From: a bacterium
GTDB lineage: Bacteria; UBA10199; JAIBAG01
Assembly (NCBI GenBank): GCA_019695305.1
Contig: JAIBAG010000025.1
Span: 1-33,292 of the forward strand
Direction: 5' to 3'
Length of the DNA stretch: 33,292 bases
Part shown: positions 16,996-33,292 of the stretch, piece by piece
Layout: the number at the start of each line of letters is the position of its first letter
Position numbering within the stretch: position 1 is the stretch's first letter
Translations under genes and position numbers: made by a program
The notes under the pieces: model-generated
The model's input: only the letters and a program-made list of their open reading frames with translations
What the model was told of the DNA's origin: nothing
Databases searched by the model: none

Positions 16996-19900
16996 CTAAT
17001 AACCATTCAAAAATAAGTTAACTGTTCCGGAGCTAATACTAGGAATTGCACTGATTAAAATATCATTTTCTCCATTACCATCAATATCACCTACGATAAT
17101 ATCATTACCCATAGAACCGTCTCGCGTTGCTCCATTAAAATAATAATCTGACGGATTTAAATAAATAGAACCTTGAAACCTAGTACCACTACCAAGCATC
17201 AAATGAACCCTACCTCCCCTCACGATACCGTTATAAGTTTCATCCGCGTAAGCTATAAAAACGTCATCATAGCCATCCATATTTACATCAGCTATTTCTG
17301 ACGCCCCAATTTCAGCAGTACTATTACCAATAAAGGAAGGGTATATAGATAAATATCTTGAGCCACTTAATCGCGAACTCGATCCATATACAATATAAGC
17401 TCTTCCAGCCCCTAAACCGCCATCATCATTATACGGTGCATTAATCAATACATCACTATAACCATCATTGTTCAAATCACCTGTATGAATACCATGTCCG
17501 ACACCCTCTCTAGATTCAGTTTCACCTAAAAACACAGGATATACTGCCAATGCATGATCACCTGTAAACTTAGTTGGCGACCCATAAACTAAAAATACTT
17601 TACCATCATGATAAGGAGCTGAAATGAATAAATCATCATATCCATCACCATTCATATCGCCAGCAGCAATACTACTTCCTGCAAGATCATATGAAGTTTC
17701 ACCAGTAAATGAAGTGTAATTAGATAAGTACCTATCCGTAAGAGAGGACAATTTAACGCCAGAACCGTATATTATATAAACTTTTCCCGTTGCATCAGAA
17801 CCATTCGCATAAGCAGCGACAATAATATCCTGATAGCCATCACCATTAATATTTCCCATAGTTAAAGCAGAGCCCGCCTTACCACCCCCTGGTTCACCTA
17901 CAAAACGCACATAATTGCCTACTGAACGCGTTCCAGAAAATTTAGTTGAAGAACCATATATCAAATACACTTTTCCTGATTGATCTCCACCTGTATCATT
18001 ATACAAAGCGCCTATAGCAATATCATCATACCCATCTCTATTTACATCACCCGTTGCTAAGGAATACCCAGCTTCATCTTCAGCAGCTTCACCCGTAAAA
18101 ATAGCATCATAAGTAGCTGTATCAAAGGTTGATATATCTGCTCGACCATAAAAAAGATATACTTTACCTATACTATGAAAAATATGAGCAGAAACAATTA
18201 AGTCATCATACCCATCTCCATTAATATCTCCTGTCACAATTTTTGTTCCAAAATTATCAGTACTTGTACCATCACCTAAAAACTCTGTATCCGCATCGGT
18301 AATCATAATATTTCTAAAATCCCCATCACAATCATCATCAATCAAATTAAAACGTTCTTGCGCATTAGGATACACATCCTCGTTTAAATCATTACAATCA
18401 TTTCCTCCAAAATTACTTCCAATATAACCATCATCATCCGCATCATTATCACACGCATCACCCAATCCATCAGAATCATAATCAGCCTGATTTGAATTAC
18501 TAGCAGTTGGGCAATTATCGTGACTGTTATCTCCCCTTCCATCTCCATCCACATCTAAATGTTCACTTGGATCATTATCAAAAGGATCATTTTCACTATC
18601 ATATCCATCGCCATCATTATCAAAATTAATATGAATTATTTGACTGCTTCGGTTAAAACTGGCCAAACTAGCATCTAAATGAGTAGCTTTATTAACAGAA
18701 CAAAAAATGTAATCAGCGGTTAAAAGAGAAGTGGCGGCTACGTTGACAGATGTTACTGTGGAATTCGTATTACTAAAAACAACATCTGTACTCTGACAAT
18801 TAGTACCTTTAACTAATTTTTCTTCATCCGATAAAACATCACTCACATTCCACGTAAAATTAAGTACGCGATCATTGGTTAATGTTAAAGTAATACCTGT
18901 TTGATTAGCTTGGTTAGTATTGTTGTACACTCCAACAGACTGACCATCAATTTGAAGCGCATTTATAGACGGAGTATTTTGAACTTCCATCGTAAAGGAC
19001 TTGTTACTGGGATTGTTAGCTGCATCTGTTGCAGTAAAATTAAAGGTCACTTTATCACCATCATTTAGTAACGTAGTATCAAAATCATTTTTGTAGGTGT
19101 CTTGCCCTAATAATACTGGCACTCCCAACATAGCAGCATACAAAGTCCCCTGATTAGGATACATGTTTAGCGTGCTAACCCCTGCATAATCCAAATTAAG
19201 AACTCCACTTTTAGAATCTACGGCCAAAGCACTAAGCTCCACTTTATCGTAGACTTTTTCGCCATTATTAAAATTGATTTCATTTAATACAGCATCTCCC
19301 ACTTTACTACGTACACTTAAAGTAATAGCAGGCCCTGCCTTATCTGTACCATTTGAAATTAAAACCTGAATTGTACTTGTAGTAGTTAAAGTAGAATCGG
19401 AAGCTGTTGCCTGTAATGTATAACTACCGTCAGGATAATCCTCTGTTCTCCATTCAGCTTGATACGTACCATTTTCCAAATCAACCACTCCATTAATAAC
19501 AGGGCTATCCAAAGTTAACTGGGTTAACCCATTTTCATCACGAGCCGATATAGCAATTAAAACGGTACCATCGACTGTTTGGCCATTTAATAAATTCCAA
19601 CTAATAAGGGGCGGCACATTTTGACCATTGCTCGTAATTAAGATAACCGCTTCTTTCTGCGTGGTTAAATCCAGCGCATTTGTTACTTGTATAAGAACGG
19701 TAAGCTCTCCGGGAGCATACTGAGGATTTAAAATGGCCGTATAATGGCGACTACTCTCACCAACATCCCCGCTTAAAGAACTTTGCATGGCACTTTTTAA
19801 ATAGTCGGCGTTTACACCATCTAAATAAAAATGAAGATCCACATTTTTAATACCGTTGCCATCGAATAAATCGGCATCAATCGTTAATTTATTTCCATTT

Positions 19901-20478
19901 TCAGTTAAAGAAAGCGCGTAATTAGATATAGTGGGCCCTAATGGAATACTATCAGCAGCATCCGGATTAGTACCGGCCAAAATTTCTGTATAATTACTGT
20001 AGCCGTCACCGTCCAAATCCAAATTTGGTAAAATATTATTTGCTTCTTCGCTGGCAATTTGATCCGCAGAAATATCGGTGCGAATACCGCTTAAGTTAAG
20101 CTGCTCTTGTGTAAATGTAATTTTATCATCACCACTAGCCGCAATTACCTGGGTAATGTCTACATAAGCAATGGGCACATCATTGTAATTAATAATGAGG
20201 ACAAAGCGATAGGCTTTACCACCTTTTAAATGTACCACTGGAGAGGCAACCGTAAGACCATTAGTGCCGTTAAAAAAATAGAGATCGGCTTTTTTTAAAA
20301 GACTGCCGCTACCGCTTTGTTCAACCGAATAAACAGACAAGGTTCCCGATAAAGCATCCACACTGCGCGCTAAGGGCCCTGTTATTTGCATGAGAGGGAT
20401 AGAATTGTTTTTATTGTTGGAAGTGGAGCAAGCCGAAACAATTAAAAGCAGTAAAAATATTTTAAAAAAGAACCTCAT
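16996..20478 (-). CDS. Large FG-GAP (integrin-like) calcium-binding lipoprotein
   Basis: A 1160-residue surface protein. Residues 1-16 are a signal peptide with lipobox VSA before C17, so it is likely lipidated. Then come a Ca-binding EF-hand-like loop DLDGDGYSNYTE near 156, several Ig/cadherin-like beta domains (about 180-600), and a thrombospondin type 3 region with many Asp-rich loops (about 620-690). A MopE-type metal motif DCNDLNEDVYPNAQE and DDDCDG follows, and from about 730 to the end seven FG-GAP repeats (GDxNxDGYDD signatures, the sixth and seventh diverged), which would fold as one seven-bladed propeller. This looks like an adhesin or matrix-binding protein needing Ca2+. The ATG is preceded by a hairpin that covers its weak ribosome site. 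Confidence 0.93.
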   Translation of the reverse strand: MRFFFKIFLLLLIVSACSTSNNKNNSIPLMQITGPLARSVDALSGTLSVYSVEQSGSGSLLKKADLYFFNGTNGLTVASPVVHLKGGKAYRFVLIINYNDVPIAYVDITQVIAASGDDKITFTQEQLNLSGIRTDISADQIASEEANNILPNLDLDGDGYSNYTEILAGTNPDAADSIPLGPTISNYALSLTENGNKLTIDADLFDGNGIKNVDLHFYLDGVNADYLKSAMQSSLSGDVGESSRHYTAILNPQYAPGELTVLIQVTNALDLTTQKEAVILITSNGQNVPPLISWNLLNGQTVDGTVLIAISARDENGLTQLTLDSPVINGVVDLENGTYQAEWRTEDYPDGSYTLQATASDSTLTTTSTIQVLISNGTDKAGPAITLSVRSKVGDAVLNEINFNNGEKVYDKVELSALAVDSKSGVLNLDYAGVSTLNMYPNQGTLYAAMLGVPVLLGQDTYKNDFDTTLLNDGDKVTFNFTATDAANNPSNKSFTMEVQNTPSINALQIDGQSVGVYNNTNQANQTGITLTLTNDRVLNFTWNVSDVLSDEEKLVKGTNCQSTDVVFSNTNSTVTSVNVAATSLLTADYIFCSVNKATHLDASLASFNRSSQIIHINFDNDGDGYDSENDPFDNDPSEHLDVDGDGRGDNSHDNCPTASNSNQADYDSDGLGDACDNDADDDGYIGSNFGGNDCNDLNEDVYPNAQERFNLIDDDCDGDFRNIMITDADTEFLGDGTSTDNFGTKIVTGDINGDGYDDLIVSAHIFHSIGKVYLFYGRADISTFDTATYDAIFTGEAAEDEAGYSLATGDVNRDGYDDIAIGALYNDTGGDQSGKVYLIYGSSTKFSGTRSVGNYVRFVGEPGGGKAGSALTMGNINGDGYQDIIVAAYANGSDATGKVYIIYGSGVKLSSLTDRYLSNYTSFTGETSYDLAGSSIAAGDMNGDGYDDLFISAPYHDGKVFLVYGSPTKFTGDHALAVYPVFLGETESREGVGHGIHTGDLNNDGYSDVLINAPYNDDGGLGAGRAYIVYGSSSRLSGSRYLSIYPSFIGNSTAEIGASEIADVNMDGYDDVFIAYADETYNGIVRGGRVHLMLGSGTRFQGSIYLNPSDYYFNGATRDGSMGNDIIVGDIDGNGENDILISAIPSISSGTVNLFLNGY

Positions 20479-21410: not shown

Positions 21411-22631
21411 CTACCCTAACACGCTTAAAAAATGGGCAGCCGATACAATGATTTGTTTTAACTCATTAATACGTGTTATTTTAAAAATATGGGGTTTGTG
21501 TACCAGCTGCACCACAATGGGTATTTTTAGTTTTTGCTGATAATACAACAATGAAGGATCGGGATTGTCATCGGATATCTTTGCTTCGATAAGCACAAAG
21601 GGTTTTCCATTTTGCACAAGAGCAAAATCCACTTCACGCTTTTGTTTATCGCGCAAATAACACAAGCTCCATTTTTTTTCGCCCAACATATTCCATAAGG
21701 CCACCATTTTAAACAAATGCAGGGCTACCATATTTTCAAATTTTTTTGCCTCATCATTAAGTTCGGCCCAATCGTACAAATAAATTTTGGGTTCTTTTTT
21801 AATCATCGATGCAAGCTTTGCGGTAAAAGGCAATACCTGAAATGTGTAATACACCATATGAAACAAGCTCATCCAGGCCCGTATTGTTTCAAAGGCTACG
21901 CCAACATCTTCACGCAACGAATTAATTGAAAAAGTGCTTCCAACTTTTTGAGGAACCAAATGACCTAATATTTCAAGCTGGGAAATTTCCCGAATTTGGG
22001 ACAAATACCGCAATTCATCGCGCACAATAATTTGCTTACGTTCATCGCTCCAACGTAAGTAATAGGCCATCTCCCCCTTGGTTAGCGGATCGGGAAATCC
22101 ACCAAAATTCCATAAGGCCTCATAATTCACTAGCGCCTGTGGATGAATAGAATCGGGGTTTTCCAGCCAAGTAGCAACACTTGAACTAGCAGGCAACTGG
22201 TTTAAAAGTTCTCCTACCGTTAATGGAAACAGTTCGTATGTTAAATAACGCCCTAACAACGAATCGCCAACTTTTTTATGTACGTTTATTTTGCCACTAC
22301 CGGTTACCAAAAAACGATAGTCGTGATGGTAAGTATCAAAAGCGCCCTTTAAATAGTTTTTCCAGCGGGAGTATTTGTGAATTTCATCGAAAATCACCAA
22401 AAAATCTTTTTGAGGCTCCCTATTTTCTGAACTAAAAAAATAAGGCTGGGCCAACATTTTTTTTTGATGATTAATATCGTCCCAGTTAAAATAAATTCCC
22501 TGCCCACATTTCTTTTTTAATTCCTCCGCCAGCGTTGTTTTACCCACTTGCCGCGGCCCCGATAACAACACCATTTTATTCCACTGAGTGAGTGCTTTTA
22601 ATAAGGGATTAACGAGCGTACGTTCAAACAT
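21411..22631 (-). CDS. AAA ATPase with DUF4143 C-terminal domain
   Basis: A 406-residue protein of the AAA_14/DUF4143 family. The Walker A loop GPRQVGKT is at residues 25-32 and Walker B with sensor is at FLVIFDEIH (D82, E83), followed by TGSGK. The C-terminal half includes a PD-(D/E)xK-like pattern with D335 (VDFA), E349 and K351 (IEAK) that suggests a nuclease-type fold. Members occur in many bacterial genomes as solo genes of unknown role, often horizontally mobile. The ATG has no ribosome site; a perfect palindrome covers the region just upstream. The gene stands alone between nuoN and the lipoprotein. Confidence 0.9.
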   Translation of the reverse strand: MFERTLVNPLLKALTQWNKMVLLSGPRQVGKTTLAEELKKKCGQGIYFNWDDINHQKKMLAQPYFFSSENREPQKDFLVIFDEIHKYSRWKNYLKGAFDTYHHDYRFLVTGSGKINVHKKVGDSLLGRYLTYELFPLTVGELLNQLPASSSVATWLENPDSIHPQALVNYEALWNFGGFPDPLTKGEMAYYLRWSDERKQIIVRDELRYLSQIREISQLEILGHLVPQKVGSTFSINSLREDVGVAFETIRAWMSLFHMVYYTFQVLPFTAKLASMIKKEPKIYLYDWAELNDEAKKFENMVALHLFKMVALWNMLGEKKWSLCYLRDKQKREVDFALVQNGKPFVLIEAKISDDNPDPSLLYYQQKLKIPIVVQLVHKPHIFKITRINELKQIIVSAAHFLSVLG

Positions 22632-22744: not shown

Positions 22745-24238
22745 TTACTGAGCAGGATTAACCGCCATAAGCGCAATATCGATGTAGTCTTTGGGATTAA
22801 TACCCAAAATAAGAATGGCCACTACACAAAACACCACCGCAAACATAAGCGGCAGCGGAATGGAGGTGATTACCAAACGATCGGATTTGCCTTTAAAGTA
22901 CATAGCCACCATAGGACGCAAATAATAGTAAGCCGACACAATGCTCATAATCACACCAAAAATGGCTAAAGGAATTTGTCCGTGTGCTACAGCATAACTA
23001 AATACAAAATATTTGCCTACAAACCCTACCGTGGGAGGAATACCCAAAAGCGAGAGCATAAAAAGCGAAAAACAGGCTGCTAAAACGGGACGCGAATAAC
23101 CCAATCCGTTTAAATCCGAAAACTGACAGGCTTCTTTTTGATGATCCACCATTACCGACAGCACTCCAAAAGCCCCCAAGCTCATTACCGAATAACCAAT
23201 GAGATAAAAAAGAACAGCCGTAGAGGCTTGTGGATCAAACTGACCATCTTTAAAACCCGAATAAAGACCAAGCAACATATAACCCGCGTGGGCAATGGAC
23301 GAATACGCCAGCATGCGTTTTAAATTTTCCTGCATGAGGGCACCCAAATTGCCCACGGCAATGGTTAAAATCACGCACACAAATAAAATTTTAGAAACCA
23401 TCACATCGGGAATAAAATGCAAATTGGTAATAATGCGGATAAAAAACGCAATGGACGCGGCCTTAACAGCCGTAGACATAAAACCCGTTACCGGCACCGG
23501 CGCGCCCTCGTACACATCGGGCACCCAAAAATGAAACGGAGCAATGCCTAATTTAAACAACACGCCGGCCAACACAAAAACCAAACCAATGCGCGGTAAA
23601 AATTCGGTAGAAGCTCCCACACCCGATAATTGCGAAAACGTTAAAAAACCAAAAGAGCCATATAACAAAGCAATACCATAAAGTATAAAAGCCGAAGCCA
23701 CCGAGCCTAATACAAAATATTTCATAGCGGCTTCGTTAGAACGCGGATCATCTTTTTTACTTCCAACCAAGACGTATACCGCGAGCGACATGATTTCGAG
23801 CCCGATGAAACTGGTAATAAGATGATCGGCCGAAAATAAAAATACCTGCCCCGCAATAGAAAATAAAATGAGTGTTACCATAGAGGCCCCTAAAGGACCT
23901 TTAGCGGTAGAGGTGGAGGATGTGTGTGTTTTAAGATAGGCATAAACTTGGCATAAGCTTAAAAGGCCTACAACCAGCACCAACACAATAAAAAAACGGG
24001 TTAAGAGATCGAGCTTTAAAGCCGTTTGCGGTAAAGCAGCAGTTTGATCCCATTGGTTAAAACAAACGGCGAGCGTTGCCACCATGGTGGCAATACCGGT
24101 TAAGTAAACCACAAGGCTGCCTTTGCGATTAAAAATAGCATCTAATAAAAGAGCCAATACTCCGCCCCCGCACAAAATCCATACGGGTAGCCCAGCCATC
24201 AGCACTGCTTTATAAGAATCAATATCAATAGGTGTCAT
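22745..24238 (-). CDS. nuoN: NADH-quinone oxidoreductase subunit N
   Basis: A 497-residue membrane subunit of complex I, one of the three antiporter-like proteins of the proton-pumping arm. About 14 helices are visible. The conserved acidic position is in FIGLEIMSLAVYVLVG near residue 145, and the lysine and loop region is in LGIAPFHFWVPDVYEGAP near 225. Length is close to the family's usual 480-500. Its ATG shares one base with the nuoM stop (TAATG), so translation is coupled. It is the last gene of the operon; no terminator is evident. Confidence 0.96.
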   Translation of the reverse strand: MTPIDIDSYKAVLMAGLPVWILCGGGVLALLLDAIFNRKGSLVVYLTGIATMVATLAVCFNQWDQTAALPQTALKLDLLTRFFIVLVLVVGLLSLCQVYAYLKTHTSSTSTAKGPLGASMVTLILFSIAGQVFLFSADHLITSFIGLEIMSLAVYVLVGSKKDDPRSNEAAMKYFVLGSVASAFILYGIALLYGSFGFLTFSQLSGVGASTEFLPRIGLVFVLAGVLFKLGIAPFHFWVPDVYEGAPVPVTGFMSTAVKAASIAFFIRIITNLHFIPDVMVSKILFVCVILTIAVGNLGALMQENLKRMLAYSSIAHAGYMLLGLYSGFKDGQFDPQASTAVLFYLIGYSVMSLGAFGVLSVMVDHQKEACQFSDLNGLGYSRPVLAACFSLFMLSLLGIPPTVGFVGKYFVFSYAVAHGQIPLAIFGVIMSIVSAYYYLRPMVAMYFKGKSDRLVITSIPLPLMFAVVFCVVAILILGINPKDYIDIALMAVNPAQ

Positions 24239-25731
24239 TACTTAACCTCAGCATCCGTCACATCTCCCGCCATTTGCATAAACAACTGTTCGATGGGAGC
24301 ATCCAAAGTTTTCATAAAAGTTTTAGGCATAATGCCCATCCACAAAATAAAAACAATTAAAGGAACCAACACTACAATTTCACGCAATGATAAATCGGGA
24401 ATTTTAATGCCTACAGGTGTTTTAGCTTCACCGTAAAACACGCGTTCTACCATCCACAACATATAAACTGCCGATAAAATAACACCCGAAGCTGCCACAA
24501 TAGTGGGCCAGCGTGCCGTTTGAAACGAACCCACCAAGGTTAAAAACTCTCCTACAAAACCGTTAGTAAGAGGCAAACCAATAGACGACATGGTCACCAG
24601 CACAAACACCACTCCATACCAGGGCATAATTTTCATTACGCCGCTGTGCTCGGCTATAGCACGCGAATGGGTACGTTCGTAAATAATACCCACTAAAAAG
24701 AAAAGTGCTCCGGTAGAAATACCGTGAGCCAGCATCTGAAAAAGCCCACCCATCATGGCCGTACGGTCCAAAGCAAACAAACCTAACATTACAACACCCA
24801 AGTGCGATACAGACGAATAAGCAATCAGCTTTTTAATATCGGTTTGCACCATGGCTACCAAAGCTCCATACACAATACCTACTACAGAAAGGAAAATGAG
24901 GTAGGGCTGAAATACTATAAAAGCCTGAGGAAAAAGCGGCATGGCAAATCGAAAAAAACCATAGGTACCCATCTTTAAAAGTACGCCAGCCAAAATAACC
25001 GAACCGGCTGTTGGCGCTTCTACGTGTGCATCAGGCAACCAGGTATGGAGCGGAAATAAAGGAACTTTTATGGCAAAAGCTAAAGCAAAAGCAGCAAACA
25101 ACCAAAATTGAACAGCGGGATCAAAACCCTGTTCGTACAAATCCACCAAACTGAATGTGCCGGTTTTTGAATATATATAAAGGATGGCAATAAGCATGAG
25201 CAGCGATCCAGCCATTGTGTAAATAAAAAACTTGAGCGCTGCATAAATTTTACGTTTGCCGCCCCATACACCAATTAAAAGATACATGGGTACCAACATC
25301 ACTTCCCAAAAAACATAAAACAGGAAAAAATCGAGTGCACTAAACACACCCACCATACCGGCTTCTAGCACCAATACAGCCATTACAAATTCTTTAACGC
25401 GCGTGGTTACTGCATGCGTGGCCGATAGCAATACAAGAGGGGTTAAAAAGGTAGAAAGAAGAATAAGTAATAAACTAACGCCATCAATGCCTACAAAATA
25501 ATTAATTTTCCAGGTGGGAATCCACGAGAGCATTTCGGTATATTCAAAGGTACCGGTACCAACAAAATGAAAATACAAATGAAGCGAAATAAAAAATTCA
25601 ATTAAGGCCAGCAAAATGCCCAAGCGATGAATAAGCGTTTTTTCCTCGCGGGGCAGCAGCATAATAATAAGCGCCGCAGCTACAGGGAAAAAAATAACAA
25701 GAGACAAAATATGGTTATTAATAAATTCCAT
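24238..25731 (-). CDS. nuoM: NADH-quinone oxidoreductase subunit M
   Basis: A 497-residue antiporter-like membrane subunit of complex I. The glutamate of the key charge pair is in FWEVMLVPMYLLIGVWGG near residue 140. The lysine and surface loop are in IKVPLFPLHTWLPDAHVE near 220-240, and LLKMGTYGFFRFAM follows. These match the proton-channel residues known for the family. The gene follows nuoL by six bases and overlaps nuoN by one, so it is part of the same message. Typical length and composition; no oddity seen. Confidence 0.97.
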   Translation of the reverse strand: MEFINNHILSLVIFFPVAAALIIMLLPREEKTLIHRLGILLALIEFFISLHLYFHFVGTGTFEYTEMLSWIPTWKINYFVGIDGVSLLLILLSTFLTPLVLLSATHAVTTRVKEFVMAVLVLEAGMVGVFSALDFFLFYVFWEVMLVPMYLLIGVWGGKRKIYAALKFFIYTMAGSLLMLIAILYIYSKTGTFSLVDLYEQGFDPAVQFWLFAAFALAFAIKVPLFPLHTWLPDAHVEAPTAGSVILAGVLLKMGTYGFFRFAMPLFPQAFIVFQPYLIFLSVVGIVYGALVAMVQTDIKKLIAYSSVSHLGVVMLGLFALDRTAMMGGLFQMLAHGISTGALFFLVGIIYERTHSRAIAEHSGVMKIMPWYGVVFVLVTMSSIGLPLTNGFVGEFLTLVGSFQTARWPTIVAASGVILSAVYMLWMVERVFYGEAKTPVGIKIPDLSLREIVVLVPLIVFILWMGIMPKTFMKTLDAPIEQLFMQMAGDVTDAEVK

Positions 25732-25737
25732 AAAAAA

Positions 25738-27693
25738 TTATTTGGTCACTACATACAGCATGGCAATTAAACTAATTAAAATGAGAATAGCGTAATGAGC
25801 CACAAGCCCCGATTGCACGCGTACAATCACACCCGCCATAAAGCGAGCTAAATTGCCCCAGCCATGTACAATAATACCATCTATCAACTTCACATCAGCC
25901 ACCTTCCACAACAAGGCATCCGAAATATGTTTAAGGGGCTGAATGATGACGGCATTATACAATTCATCAATATAAAATTTATTACTCATTAAATTATGGA
26001 GGGGTTTAAGCTTAATTTTAATATTTTTAGTCCATTCCAGGTTACGGCTATAGAGCGCTAAAGAAATAAGAGAAAGCAAAAGGGCCCAAGCAGCCGACAC
26101 ACCCATAAGCATGAGTTCGGTATGATGATCACCTTCTAAAGCTGGAAGTCCAGCCGTGAGCTCGTGCAACCAATGATGAAAATGATTATGCCCACCCAAT
26201 ACTTCAGGAATTCCCATCAGCCCGCCTACCACCGCTAAAATTCCTAAAATAAGAACGGGAAAATTCATGCTGGCCGGCACATGATGAACCTCATGGCCAC
26301 GAAACTTTCCTAAAAAGGTGTAGGCAAATAAACGGAACATGTAAAATGCCGTAAGGCCTGCAGCCATAAGTGCCAATACATAATAGGTGGTATTACCACT
26401 GGCATACACATGCCACAAAATTTCATCTTTAGAGAAAAAGCCGGCAAAGGGAGGAATACCGGCAATGGCAATAGTGGATAATAAAAACATAAAACCGGTA
26501 AGAGGAATCTTTTTTAAGAGCCCACCCATATGACGAATATCTTGTTCGTGATGACAGGCGTAAATGACAGAGCCGGAACCAAGAAACAAACAAGCTTTAA
26601 AGAAAGCGTGAGTCACAACGTGGAAAATAGCGGCCTGCGGTGCACCCACACCTAAGCCTAAAAACATGTAGCCCAATTGCGATACGGTAGAATAAGCCAA
26701 TACCTTTTTAATATCGTACTGGGTGATAGCGATAAGAGCCGCACCAATGGCAGTAGCTAAACCAATGGTTGCAATAATATGTAAAGTAAACGGGGCCATG
26801 GCATACACAAAAAAGAGACGTGCTACCATATAAACGCCGGCAGTCACCATGGTGGCCGCATGGATTAAAGCAGAAACCGGCGTAGGACCAGCCATGGCAT
26901 CGGGTAACCAAACATAGAGTGGAATTTGCGCCGACTTACCTGTTGCACCGGTAAATAAACAAAGAGTAATAAGCGTTGCAAAAGGAGCCAACACCTCTTT
27001 ATGGGCGGCCAAAAAGTCGTAATTAAAAAAACGTAAATCACTGCTCTGTGCCTGCGATGTAAATGCAAACACAATAAAAAAGAGACCAATTAAAAATCCA
27101 AAATCACCCACGCGGTTAGCTACAAAGGCTTTTTTGCCGCACTGAGCTTTAGCCGCATCGGTAAACCAAAACCCAATAAGAAGATACGAACAAAGCCCCA
27201 CACCTTCCCAGCCCACAAAAAGAACTAAAAGGTTATCGCCTAAAACCAACAAAAGCATGAAAAAGAGAAAGAGATTAAGATAGGCAAAAAAGCGCGAAAA
27301 ACCTTCGTCGTCGTGCATGTATCCGCGAGAATATATATGGATAAGGCTGCCCACACCGGTGACAACAAGTGTCATCACGCTTGATAGGTGATCAAACAAA
27401 AAACCAAATGAAATATTGATAAGCGGCGTTGATAACCAAGGGAGCACTGCATCCGTAGCCAATTTTCCTTCCCCTTCGGGCAAAGCTTTTAACGTTAAAA
27501 AAGCCCACACGGTAAGCGCAAACGAAAGAATTGGAAATAAACAGCCCACAAAAGCCGAAAACATTTCGGGATTTTTAACAGCAGGATTATGAAGCCTATC
27601 ACGCGACACCTTAAGCGCCACAGTGCCATTAATTAAAGCTCCTGCTAGAGGCATTAAGGGAATTAATGTTAAAAATTGTGTGTTAAATTCCAT
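25738..27693 (-). CDS. nuoL: NADH-quinone oxidoreductase subunit L
   Basis: A 651-residue antiporter-like subunit at the far end of complex I's membrane arm. The glutamate in GWEGVGLCSYLLIGFW near residue 155 and the lysine region TGKSAQIPLYVWLPDAM near 252 are intact. The C-terminus has extra hydrophilic and hydrophobic segments that would include the long lateral helix. The ATG is 215 bp past the nuoK stop, and the gap holds a large inverted-repeat element. Only a distant GGAAG resembles a ribosome site. Function should be normal. Confidence 0.97.
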   Translation of the reverse strand: MEFNTQFLTLIPLMPLAGALINGTVALKVSRDRLHNPAVKNPEMFSAFVGCLFPILSFALTVWAFLTLKALPEGEGKLATDAVLPWLSTPLINISFGFLFDHLSSVMTLVVTGVGSLIHIYSRGYMHDDEGFSRFFAYLNLFLFFMLLLVLGDNLLVLFVGWEGVGLCSYLLIGFWFTDAAKAQCGKKAFVANRVGDFGFLIGLFFIVFAFTSQAQSSDLRFFNYDFLAAHKEVLAPFATLITLCLFTGATGKSAQIPLYVWLPDAMAGPTPVSALIHAATMVTAGVYMVARLFFVYAMAPFTLHIIATIGLATAIGAALIAITQYDIKKVLAYSTVSQLGYMFLGLGVGAPQAAIFHVVTHAFFKACLFLGSGSVIYACHHEQDIRHMGGLLKKIPLTGFMFLLSTIAIAGIPPFAGFFSKDEILWHVYASGNTTYYVLALMAAGLTAFYMFRLFAYTFLGKFRGHEVHHVPASMNFPVLILGILAVVGGLMGIPEVLGGHNHFHHWLHELTAGLPALEGDHHTELMLMGVSAAWALLLSLISLALYSRNLEWTKNIKIKLKPLHNLMSNKFYIDELYNAVIIQPLKHISDALLWKVADVKLIDGIIVHGWGNLARFMAGVIVRVQSGLVAHYAILILISLIAMLYVVTK

Positions 27694-27908: not shown

Positions 27909-28217
27909 TTATCCCCCCATAATGCGCCATTCATCGGTACGCACCGTGTGCCGATTTCTATACATCATAATCACAATCGCCAAACCCACAGCGGCTTCTG
28001 CCGCTGCCACCGCCATCACAAAAAATACAACCACATGGGCTTCCATTTTTCCAAAATAACGGGCCAGTGCAACAAACGAAAGATTGGCGGCATTCAGCAT
28101 AATTTCAATGCACATAAACACGATCAGTAAATTTTTACGCAGCACCACGCCCCAAAGACCAATGCCAAACATGGCAGCAGAAAGAATGAGATAATGAACA
28201 ACGGTAATATTTTGCAT
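27909..28217 (-). CDS. nuoK: NADH-quinone oxidoreductase subunit K
   Basis: This 102-residue, three-helix membrane subunit is of normal length for NuoK. The two conserved membrane glutamates are visible, the first in FMCIEIMLNAANL near residue 38 and the second in AAAEAAVGLAIVI near 74; they form part of the proton path. Its start shares one base with the nuoJ stop, so the two are coupled. It is separated from nuoL by the inverted-repeat element. Confidence 0.97.
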   Translation of the reverse strand: MQNITVVHYLILSAAMFGIGLWGVVLRKNLLIVFMCIEIMLNAANLSFVALARYFGKMEAHVVVFFVMAVAAAEAAVGLAIVIMMYRNRHTVRTDEWRIMGG

Positions 28218-28717
28218 TACCGACTCTCCTTTTTAGCAAGTAGCACCACGCCAATGATGGAAACAAGCAGCAATACCGAGGTGATTTCAAACGGGATTAA
28301 ATAATCGGCAAATAAAATTTTACCTACTTCTTTGGGAGCTCCAAACGAAGCATCAACAGCAGGAAAAGCTCCCGTACCCAGGCTTAAAAATTTACGAACC
28401 AGTAAATAAATAAAAATACCAGCCAAGGGTAAGGTAAAAAGCTTGGGAAGTGTCACTTGATCGTCTATTAAATCTTGGTCGCGCAATTTTAAAAGCATAA
28501 CAACAAAGATAAAGAGCACCATAATGGCACCTGCATAAACAAGCACTTGCATCACCGCAACAAACGGAGCCATCAGCAATACATAGAGACCAGCCAAATT
28601 AAAAAGCGCCATCACTAAACATAAAGCACTCGCTACAGGGTTCTTTTGAATAACGGTTAAGAAAACCATCAACAAAGCGAGGCCTCCAAAAATATAGAAT
28701 AAAATCGTTTCACCCAT
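28217..28717 (-). CDS. nuoJ: NADH-quinone oxidoreductase subunit J
   Basis: A 166-residue membrane subunit of complex I with five helices. The segment VLVYAGAIMVLFIFVVMLL near residues 58-76 is the conserved helix that changes shape during turnover. Its upstream neighbour would usually be nuoI, but here the gap of 106 bp to nuoH holds only two hairpins. No clear ribosome site lies before the ATG, so translation may depend on ribosomes finishing nuoH or on a leader structure. Confidence 0.95.
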   Translation of the reverse strand: MGETILFYIFGGLALLMVFLTVIQKNPVASALCLVMALFNLAGLYVLLMAPFVAVMQVLVYAGAIMVLFIFVVMLLKLRDQDLIDDQVTLPKLFTLPLAGIFIYLLVRKFLSLGTGAFPAVDASFGAPKEVGKILFADYLIPFEITSVLLLVSIIGVVLLAKKESR

Positions 28718-28740
28718 AAAGTAAGATAACCCACCTCTAT

Positions 28741-28801
28741 CTCCTCCCTTAATCTAAGGGAGGAGCACTTTCTTTCCCCTCCCCCTTAAATTAAGGGGGA
28801 G
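28741..28801. repeat. Two tandem perfect hairpins in place of nuoI
   Basis: The first has arms CTCCTCCCTTA (28741-28751) and TAAGGGAGGAG (28755-28765) around a 3-base loop. The second is a perfect palindrome with CTCCCCCTTAA (28779-28789) and TTAAGGGGGAG (28791-28801). Their words are alike (CTCC..CTTAA), as in dispersed palindromic repeats found in many bacteria. They occupy most of the gap between nuoH and nuoJ. No T run follows either on the minus strand, so termination is unlikely. Confidence 0.65.
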
Positions 28802-28823
28802 CCGGAGGGGGTTACTCTCCTGT

Positions 28824-30068
28824 TCATACAAACAACATTACAATACTGGTTATCACCAAATTCGCTAAAGCGAGCGGTATCATCCCCTTCCAGCCAATAT
28901 TCATCAACTGATCATAGCGGAAGCGTGGAAGCGTCCAACGCACCCAAATAAAGAGCCAGCAGAAAAAGAGAACCTTGGCCATAAACACACCAAACTGAAT
29001 AAAAGCCGTAAAAATCTGCGAGCCGGTATCACCCAAATTAAATGAACCGGTAAAGAAAGCTAAGAGCGCTAAACCTAAACCACCCAAGAGAAGCGGCGCG
29101 CCCACGACAATCACTTCGTAATCACGCTTATCGCCATAATGGCCTTTTTTAAATTTTTTCAGCAGGAAGGCCCCGATGATCATAAACAACACCGCATGGG
29201 CCATAATAATGATGAAGAGTCCGGTATCGGCATGGGCACGGATAAAATCGGTAGAGAGAAAAGGAACCTGCCAACCGCCAAAAAAGAGTATGGAGATAAG
29301 ACAAGAAGCCACAATCATGTGTGCATATTCTGCCATAAAGAACATAGCGAATTTCATGGAGCTATATTCCACGTGATAACCCACAATTTCCGATTCACCT
29401 TCGGGTAAATCAAACGGGTTGCGGTTAGTTTCAGCAAAAGCAGCCACGGTAAAAAGAAAGAAAGCAATCGGCTGACGGACAATATTCCAGTGCAGCATGT
29501 TTTCGGTTTGATTGGTGATAATATGATGAAGCTCCAGCGAACCACCCAACATAAGAACACTTAAGAGGGATAAGCCCATTGAAATTTCGTACGAAATCAT
29601 TTGAGCTGAGGAACGAGCGCCTCCTAAAAGAGCATATTTATTGTTTGCAGCCCAACCGGCTAACATAATGCCAAACACACCCATGGAGGCCATGGCCAAT
29701 ACATACAGAACACCCACGTTGATGTTAGCTGGCTGCAAAACAAATTCGGTACCATTGATGGTGATGGGATGCGCAAACGGGATAACAGCAAAAGTTACAC
29801 AAGCAACAGCCAAGGTTAAAAACGGAGCGATTGTAAAATAAGGATTGGTGACATGACCGGGAGTAAAATCTTCTTTGGTCATGAGCTTGATAACATCCGA
29901 GAGCGAATGTAATAAACCACCCAAACGCAAGCCCTTGATGCTGGCACGGTTAGGACCATGGCGCCCCTGAATAAAAGCCGAACCTTTTCTTTCCGCCCAA
30001 ATAAGAAGGGGGATAATGTTAAAAATAATGAGAAAAGGGATAAGAATTTTAAGAATAATAATAATCAT
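28824..30068 (-). CDS. nuoH: NADH-quinone oxidoreductase subunit H, with an extra segment
   Basis: A 414-residue membrane subunit linking the peripheral arm and the membrane arm near the quinone site. The conserved cytoplasmic loop FAETNRNPFDLPEGESE near residues 215-231 and the start AERKGSAFIQGRHGPNR (about 25-41) are intact. The length is about 75 residues above the usual 325-350. The extra part lies between FGGWQVPF and VLFFCWLFIWVRW (about 265-365) and contains two predicted helices with a charged loop (GHYGDKRDYE). The start shares one base with the nuoG stop. nuoI is absent after it. Confidence 0.95.
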   Translation of the reverse strand: MIIIILKILIPFLIIFNIIPLLIWAERKGSAFIQGRHGPNRASIKGLRLGGLLHSLSDVIKLMTKEDFTPGHVTNPYFTIAPFLTLAVACVTFAVIPFAHPITINGTEFVLQPANINVGVLYVLAMASMGVFGIMLAGWAANNKYALLGGARSSAQMISYEISMGLSLLSVLMLGGSLELHHIITNQTENMLHWNIVRQPIAFFLFTVAAFAETNRNPFDLPEGESEIVGYHVEYSSMKFAMFFMAEYAHMIVASCLISILFFGGWQVPFLSTDFIRAHADTGLFIIIMAHAVLFMIIGAFLLKKFKKGHYGDKRDYEVIVVGAPLLLGGLGLALLAFFTGSFNLGDTGSQIFTAFIQFGVFMAKVLFFCWLFIWVRWTLPRFRYDQLMNIGWKGMIPLALANLVITSIVMLFV

Positions 30069-31519
30069 TAAAATACCGAAACCGCCTCCGCCTTTTTAGC
30101 ACTCATGCCCAATGCCAGTGTTATTGCATCTAACCACTCACCCACCAAACGCGATTCACCACGAGGGGCAAAAGCCTGTGAAATTTTTTGCACCACAGCA
30201 TTTACGTTGGTAAGGTGGCCATCCTGTTCAGCAAAAGTAGGAATTGGACAAACCACACTTGCATGTGGCAATGCATCACCAACATTAGCTGCAAAAATAG
30301 CCAAGATAGGAATATTTTTCTTTTTCAAAATTTCAAAATCGGCTTCGCTTAATCCATTGAGCACAAGCGCTGCTTGCGCATTTTTAATCTCGGATACGGG
30401 TTTTAATTTTAGATCGTTAATGTACGCTTGATTAGGATTTTTATCGGCCGTGCGTAAAATAGTATCGGAGCTAGGATTTTTTACCTCGTTACGACTGTAA
30501 TAACGCAAATCGGTTTTAAGAACATTTTTGGAAAACTCATCAAATGCTTTTAATACCTCATTGGTTTCACCCGCGTGAGAAATAGTGGCAATCTCACTGC
30601 TATTCATCGTTTTTAATTGAGAGGCTAAATAAGCGGCAGCTTCGGCAAACGAAACTTCCTGCATGGCGCCGTTTTTAATAATTTGAGCACGCAGCACGCG
30701 GTTATCGTTTACAAAATGATACCCATGGCGGCCTTCGTCACACATCCAGTACTGATTAACGTTTGGATTATAGCGCGGAATAAGACGATAAATTTTATTC
30801 CCTTCGTGATGCACTTCGATATTACAACCGCGTGAACAACCCGTGCAAACAGACGGTGTGCGTTTTAAATACCATACGCGCTTTTTAAAACGGAATTCAT
30901 CACTGGTAAGCGCTCCCACCGGGCAGATATCCACCACATTTCCGGCATAAGGATTGGAAAGCTTTTTACCAGGGAAGGTGGTGATGGTCACATGGTCGCC
31001 ACGGTTAGCCAAAGCCAATTCATCTTGGCCGGCAACATCACGGCAGAAACGAATACAACGCGTACAGGCAATGCAACGTTCCTGATCGAGCATCACGGAA
31101 GACCCTAAATCGATCATTTTATCTTTATGAACTTTTGTTTCTTCAAAGCGCGACGGAATACGGTCGTACTTCATGTAATAATCTTGCAGACGACATTCAC
31201 CAGCCTGATCACAGGTGGGACAATCGAGAGGATGGTTGATGAGTAAAAATTCCATCACCGACGCACGCATCTTTTTTACTTTATCGGTTTGTGTATGCAC
31301 CACCATGCCGGGAGCCACTTTGGTATTGCAGGCAATTTGTGGTTTTGGAGATTTTTCGATGTCCACCAAACACATGCGGCAGTTACCATCAATTTTAAGA
31401 CCGGGATGGTAACAATAATGCGGCACTTCCACACCAATCTGACGTGCGGCTTCAATAAGGTTGGTGCCTTCTTCTACGTCTACACTCTGTCCATCAATTG
31501 TTAAATTTACTTTAGCCAT
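30068..31519 (-). CDS. nuoG: NADH-quinone oxidoreductase subunit G (short form with N7 motif)
   Basis: A 483-residue peripheral subunit, about half the usual length. In order: a [2Fe-2S] domain (CYHPGLKIDGNCRMC near 36-50), the His/Cys cluster N5 motif (HPLDCPTCDQAGEC near 96-109), two further cluster motifs (CIACTRCIRFC and CPVG), and C-x2-C-x3-C-x27-C (about 224-260), which is the ligand set of the extra cluster N7. The remaining region is a shortened molybdopterin-type domain without the long C-terminal lobe. It passes electrons from NuoF towards the quinone. It lies between nuoF (20 bp gap) and nuoH (1 bp overlap). Confidence 0.95.
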   Translation of the reverse strand: MAKVNLTIDGQSVDVEEGTNLIEAARQIGVEVPHYCYHPGLKIDGNCRMCLVDIEKSPKPQIACNTKVAPGMVVHTQTDKVKKMRASVMEFLLINHPLDCPTCDQAGECRLQDYYMKYDRIPSRFEETKVHKDKMIDLGSSVMLDQERCIACTRCIRFCRDVAGQDELALANRGDHVTITTFPGKKLSNPYAGNVVDICPVGALTSDEFRFKKRVWYLKRTPSVCTGCSRGCNIEVHHEGNKIYRLIPRYNPNVNQYWMCDEGRHGYHFVNDNRVLRAQIIKNGAMQEVSFAEAAAYLASQLKTMNSSEIATISHAGETNEVLKAFDEFSKNVLKTDLRYYSRNEVKNPSSDTILRTADKNPNQAYINDLKLKPVSEIKNAQAALVLNGLSEADFEILKKKNIPILAIFAANVGDALPHASVVCPIPTFAEQDGHLTNVNAVVQKISQAFAPRGESRLVGEWLDAITLALGMSAKKAEAVSVF

Positions 31520-31539: not shown

Positions 31540-32826
31540 TTATATTCCCACTCTCACAGCCTGAGGCCTATTTTTCAAATGCCGTCTAAAATCATCCGGA
31601 AACTTTTTAATAAAACTTATCACCGGCATGGAGAGAGAATCAGCCAACACACAAATTGTTTTACCCATCATGTTGTCGGAAAGCTCATTTAAGAGTGCAA
31701 TGTCTTTTTCTTCTCCACCTTCGCGCAATATACGTACCAGCATTTTATCAATCCAGCCTGTTCCTTCACGGCACGGTGTACACTGGCCGCACGATTCATG
31801 CGCATAAAAACGAGAGAGATTACGCAACACCCACACCATATCAACATCTTCGTTCATGACGATAACTCCACCAGAACCCAGCATGGTTTGATGCGCCGTC
31901 ATTGATTCGTAATCGAGTGTCACAGTTTCACAATCTTTAGCTGTTAAAATGGGCATGGAGGTTCCGCCAGGAATTACCGCTTTTAAAGCCTTGCCATCTT
32001 TCATTCCCCCGCACACTTTATTGATAAGATCTTTCATGGGATAACCCAGAGGCAATTCATACACACCGGGTTTATTCACATGACCGGAAACGGAAAATAA
32101 TTTTGTGCCGGGCGATTTTTCGGTACCAAACTTTTTGTAGGCATCGGCACCATTATTAAGAATGTAAGGAAGCGCCGAAATAGTTTCGACGTTATTAATA
32201 ATGGTAGGACAACCAAAAAGACCCACTACAGCCGGAAACGGTGGTTTAATACGAGGCTGACCTTTGTTACCCTCAAGCGAACTTAAAAGCGCTGTCTCTT
32301 CTCCACAAATATAAGCGCCAGCACCGCGATGCACGGTTACATCCAGTTTATAATTTTTGCCAAAAAGATTTTTGCCCAAATAACCCTTTTGATAGGCTTC
32401 CTGAACCGCTTCTTCGATGCGACGATAGGCTAAATCGAATTCACCACGAATATACACATAGGCACTTTCGGCACCAATGGCGTAGCAGCAGATGATGATG
32501 CCTTCAATAAGTTGATGCGGATCATCTTCTAAAAGATAGCGATCTTTAAAAGTGCCCGGCTCCGATTCATCGGCATTCACGCACAGATATTTGGGTTTAT
32601 CCACGTTTTTGGGAATAAAACTCCACTTAAGACCAGCGGCAAAACCAGCACCACCGCGGCCGCGCAAGCCGGACTTTTTAACTTCTTCAATCACATCATC
32701 AGGCTTCATCGAAAAAAGTTTGTCGATGGATTTATACCCGCCCGTTTTTTGATACACGTCGGCCGTATACGATTTTTCGAGTCCAAAACGGGTGGTAAGA
32801 ACTAAATTGTCTTTGTTATCGGTCAT
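31540..32826 (-). CDS. nuoF: NADH-quinone oxidoreductase subunit F
   Basis: A 428-residue peripheral subunit that oxidises NADH and holds FMN and one [4Fe-4S] cluster. Visible are the glycine-rich NADH loop GRGGAGFAAGLKW near residues 55-67, the FMN region DESEPGTFKDR near 85-95, and GAGAYICGEETALL near 168-181. The cluster motif ESCGQCTPCREG lies near 343-354. Length is normal. The ATG overlaps the nuoE stop codon by four bases (ATGA), so translation is coupled. Confidence 0.97.
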   Translation of the reverse strand: MTDNKDNLVLTTRFGLEKSYTADVYQKTGGYKSIDKLFSMKPDDVIEEVKKSGLRGRGGAGFAAGLKWSFIPKNVDKPKYLCVNADESEPGTFKDRYLLEDDPHQLIEGIIICCYAIGAESAYVYIRGEFDLAYRRIEEAVQEAYQKGYLGKNLFGKNYKLDVTVHRGAGAYICGEETALLSSLEGNKGQPRIKPPFPAVVGLFGCPTIINNVETISALPYILNNGADAYKKFGTEKSPGTKLFSVSGHVNKPGVYELPLGYPMKDLINKVCGGMKDGKALKAVIPGGTSMPILTAKDCETVTLDYESMTAHQTMLGSGGVIVMNEDVDMVWVLRNLSRFYAHESCGQCTPCREGTGWIDKMLVRILREGGEEKDIALLNELSDNMMGKTICVLADSLSMPVISFIKKFPDDFRRHLKNRPQAVRVGI

Positions 32827-33292
32827 GCTAATTCCGCCAAAATTTTATCTAATTTTGCTGGTGTTAAATTTTCGTGATACGCCTCGTTAATCATAATAGC
32901 CGGCGCGGTACCACAACTAGCCAAACATTCCACCGTGCAGAGAGAAAACTTTCCGTCACGCGTAGTTTCGCCTTCGTTAATTTTCAATTTTGTTTTGAGA
33001 TGATCCACCAGACTATCGGCCCCCATCATGGCACACGAAAGCGTTCGGCAAACCTGAATATGATGTTTACCCACAGGTTTGCGGTTAAACATCGTATAAA
33101 AAGTCACCACACTCAGCACGTGCACGGGCGATAAATCGAGCAACTTGCCAACATACTCCATAGCCTCATCCGAAATAAAACCATATTGCCCCTGCACCAA
33201 CCACAAGGTGGGCAAAATAGCCGCTTTTTTGGTAGGATAACGCGTTAAGAGCGTGTCAAATTTCTTTTTATTATCTGCTGTAAATTCAATCG
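32823..33292 (-). CDS. nuoE: NADH-quinone oxidoreductase subunit E (start beyond window)
   Basis: The C-terminal about 155 residues of the thioredoxin-like [2Fe-2S] subunit are visible; the frame stays open to the right edge, so the gene continues outside. The upstream part reads as FTADNKKKFDTLL and TRYPTKKAA, typical of the N-terminus, so an internal TTG at 33215 is not the start. Cluster ligands are in CRTLSC (C-x4-C) and CTVECLASC (C-x3-C). It pairs with NuoF to form the NADH-binding tip. nuoA-D are expected further right. Confidence 0.95.
   Translation of the reverse strand, partial: IEFTADNKKKFDTLLTRYPTKKAAILPTLWLVQGQYGFISDEAMEYVGKLLDLSPVHVLSVVTFYTMFNRKPVGKHHIQVCRTLSCAMMGADSLVDHLKTKLKINEGETTRDGKFSLCTVECLASCGTAPAIMINEAYHENLTPAKLDKILAELA

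Follow-up and report, generated by a model that had tools for sequence, protein, structure and literature searches.

We analysed a window of 33,292 nucleotides, which is the whole of contig C25 in an assembly that totals 2.78 Mb in 58 contigs and is 95.6% complete. Its minus strand carries a run of genes for NADH:quinone oxidoreductase (complex I), whose subunit identities were assigned with NCBIfam models. In the order of transcription these are a partial nuoE (32823..33292), nuoF (31540..32826), nuoG (30068..31519), nuoH (28824..30068; 414 aa), nuoJ (28217..28717; 166 aa), nuoK (27909..28217), nuoL (25738..27693), nuoM (24238..25731) and nuoN (22745..24238). The contig end cuts nuoE, the start of which lies on contig C9 (L063). 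The first bases of that contig (C9:1-127) are identical to the window's last bases within nuoE, and this overlap of about 127 bases is of a size that would be typical of an assembler's k-mer; nuoD, nuoC, nuoB and nuoA follow on C9, with nuoD (C9:153-1307) present as a single copy in the genome. Joined in this way, the full operon reads nuoA-B-C-D-E-F-G-H-J-K-L-M-N, from which one gene, nuoI, is absent.

Several other features of the window were recorded alongside the operon. NuoG is only 483 aa long and has a short C-terminal domain, with the molybdopterin-like domain mostly absent and Pfam PF00384 matching residues 416-456 only; the nuoG loci of relatives in the class look comparably short. 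Adjoining nuoN is a gene for an AAA_14/DUF4143 ATPase (21411-22631), and similar genes, recognized by reading the sequences, occur near nuoI in a relative (G004; L178). Positions 16996-20478 encode a probable lipoprotein of 1160 aa with Ig-like, TSP3, MopE-type metal-binding and FG-GAP repeats.

The usual site of nuoI is the intergenic gap between nuoH and nuoJ, which here spans 106 bases (28718..28823) from the nuoH stop (28824) to the nuoJ start (28717). An earlier note had described this gene order and spacing correctly, and had proposed that nuoI was missing, either because it had moved elsewhere, because a different ferredoxin had replaced it or because the complex works without it. No open reading frame falls within the 106 bases, which leave no coding room for nuoI, and a whole-genome search with NuoI gave no match on the window's contig. 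The gap contains two perfect 11-base palindromes and is predicted to form a strong hairpin (-57.6 kcal/mol, z -4.9). In the repeat search, the motif AACCCCCTC..CTCCCNNTTA had 35 copies genome-wide, whereas its reversed control had none, and the copy at 28736-28813 is REPIN-like in layout. We therefore rejected a nuoI remnant in the gap, the content of which is a single copy of this dispersed palindromic repeat.

The claim that nuoI is missing holds for the operon but not for the genome. The NuoI-family search of the same genome returned one match (G000:C1:81498-81848), which lies inside a 170-residue open reading frame at C1:81402-81914 and has both CxxCxxCxxxCP motifs, CTACMLCATVCP and CIYCGFCVEACP (L001:1405-1914). 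This is the search that the earlier note had proposed as a check, naming a nuoI elsewhere in the genome as the outcome that would count against its claim, and it bears out the first of its three options, namely that the gene had moved. On contig C1, nuoI lies downstream of a gene for a CNNM/CBS protein and upstream of a 136-aa open reading frame for which no Pfam match was found. With subunits A-D on C9, E-H and J-N in the window and I on C1, the genome encodes 14/14 complex I subunits.

The identity of this protein is supported at several levels. Its top-ranked NCBIfam models are those of NuoI (E 2.6e-30), and the eight cluster cysteines are all invariant across 25 NuoI orthologues. Its scores of 103-105 bits fall under the curated NCBIfam cut-offs of 113 (TIGR01971) and 135 (NF004538), which are annotation thresholds and no biological feature. 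Among 13 matching control genomes, 7 passed the TIGR01971 cut-off and 6 missed it, indicating that the threshold does not decide membership of the NuoI family. Furthermore, a profile of the class NuoI matched solved NDUFS8 and bacterial NuoI chains in the PDB with E values of about 1e-34 to 1e-30, and the NDUFS8 profile alignments start at query residue 14, so that they include the N-terminal region before the clusters. An AlphaFold2 model of one orthologue (L065) was of low confidence (mean pLDDT 45.8).

The separation of nuoI from nuoH extends throughout the class. Both genes were present in 37 class genomes, a count that covers those in the relatives search, the source genome included, with a long-type or related NuoH plus this NuoI, and they were adjacent in none of the 37. 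In three of these genomes the two genes share a contig, at distances of 33, 593 and 703 kb. No NuoI was found between nuoH and nuoJ at any class nuoH locus with nuoJ in view; at most loci nuoJ directly follows nuoH, at one (L055) another open reading frame lies between them, and some have no nuoJ within 1.5 kb. Three further class genomes (G006, G032 and G045) have nuoH and no detected solo NuoI, and these are probably incomplete bins. The solo NuoIs group in a single clade, which has a bootstrap of 92 and an SH-aLRT of 76 and requires one change of state. The class NuoHs are likewise a single clade, and NuoI and NuoH distances are correlated (Mantel r 0.68, p 0.001; 19 genomes), as expected if both had been inherited vertically together. 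Outgroups including FCPU426 and Krumholzibacteria keep nuoH-I-J. Second complexes in class genomes, which served as an internal control, provided 15 pairs in which nuoH and nuoI are neighbours.

In its new locations, nuoI is found in neighbourhoods that recur across families, with gene names given by reading the sequences. In one, it accompanies an isocitrate/isopropylmalate-dehydrogenase-like gene and is divergent from CBS-korA-korB (L179, L180, L182 and L187); in another, it lies between dcd and a dnaJ-like gene; in a third, which occurs in the window's own order, it is near nadA or ribF. In several families the unlinked nuoI has a conserved place beside korAB and the isocitrate-dehydrogenase-like gene, and this is the only hint that its product, in addition to its role in complex I, might also accept electrons from 2-oxoglutarate:ferredoxin oxidoreductase (KOR). 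Were this so, the coupling would give complex I a ferredoxin entry. In the source genome, however, korA lies on a different contig (C4) from nuoI, which makes a functional link between NuoI and KOR speculation, and we regard this additional role as highly improbable.

Taken together, these results make us confident that the organism encodes a complete 14-subunit complex I in which nuoI has relocated from the nuoH/nuoJ site to an unlinked position at C1:81402-81914. The gene is present as a single intact copy with both cluster motifs, and the 13 other genes keep their order. The relocation is found throughout the class and appears to have happened once; the simplest reading of the sequences would be a single move in the ancestor of the class, with additional moves later. 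Electrons pass from NuoG to NuoB by way of clusters N6a and N6b, which are indispensable for this step, as is well established. The unlinked NuoI would be translated separately and then assemble into the complex, where it would carry these two clusters between NuoG and NuoB as usual. That it assembles there is suggested by the content of the genome, which has one complex I and no other NuoI, and the resulting enzyme is probably an ordinary complex I.

Among the alternatives, the one that fares least badly is loss of the native nuoI, with its role passing either to a foreign NuoI or to another ferredoxin, the latter being the second option of the earlier note. An unlinked gene whose neighbourhoods differ between families could be read in this way. 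However, the unlinked NuoIs show the full NuoI architecture and form a single clade. In the tree this clade shares a broader region with canonical NuoIs from those lineages that are closest by NuoH, and the unlinked NuoIs co-diverge with NuoH. One vertical relocation explains this architecture, placement and co-divergence better than replacement does, and we consider a foreign origin unlikely, with very little probability left to a takeover of either kind. Even less credible is an assembly artefact in which nuoI was collapsed or lost at the gap. Although the assembly is fragmented, the gap contains a repeat and a contig ends inside the operon at nuoE, the nuoH-nuoJ junction without nuoI recurs in independently assembled genomes of the class, and nuoI is intact and unlinked in an independent public assembly as well (MGRG01000014.1; L065). 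That the complex works without NuoI, as the earlier note had also suggested, with the unlinked gene serving for instance as electron acceptor for KOR as its kor-associated position in several families might imply, is likewise barely conceivable, given the need for N6a and N6b, the lack of a second NuoI in the genome, the distance of korA from nuoI in the source genome and the fact that the class NuoI has kept both its invariant ligands and the N-terminal region. The class-wide arrangement, the single clade and the persistence of nuoH-nuoI in outgroups and second complexes together argue decisively for relocation of nuoI and against loss, a collapsed assembly or a substitute ferredoxin.

Division of the nuo genes among separate clusters is widespread in bacteria, and a recent survey reports that split and single-cluster forms occur together in most clades of complex I (PMC12361115). 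The canonical nuoA-N operons of FCPU426 (L067) and Krumholzibacteria (L073/L074) resemble the present one in having the 13 other genes in the same order and a long type of NuoH, but carry nuoI between nuoH and nuoJ, whereas here it is unlinked. The additional residues of this NuoH, about 70 near positions 280-350 relative to shorter NuoH proteins, are shared by outgroups such as L067-L074; since these have a canonical nuoI, we rejected the insertion as a trait coupled to the relocation. In Bdellovibrionota (L085/L089) and Acidobacteriota (L101), as here, the genes of the complex are divided between separate sites, and nuoI is not next to nuoH. However, in the former nuoI comes after nuoG, within a cluster for the peripheral arm, and in the latter it comes after nuoD, whereas here nuoI alone has moved and the rest has stayed together. 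The second complex I found in the same class of organisms (H2-I2) has homologous subunits but retains the nuoH-nuoI adjacency, and it is absent from the source genome. A nuoI on a Poribacteria contig (L120:8001-8492) also has no nuo neighbour within 8 kb, and a relocation like that in the class may have happened there too.

With these precedents, the present operon is another split nuo cluster. A literature search on unlinked nuoI returned nothing relevant, and we did not find a class-wide move of nuoI alone described. The finding also carries a warning for genome annotation, in that operon-based annotation can call the complex I of this class incomplete when nuoI is merely unlinked and scores under the usual model cut-offs. 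For the organism itself, what looked like a missing part of a core respiratory enzyme has been accounted for.
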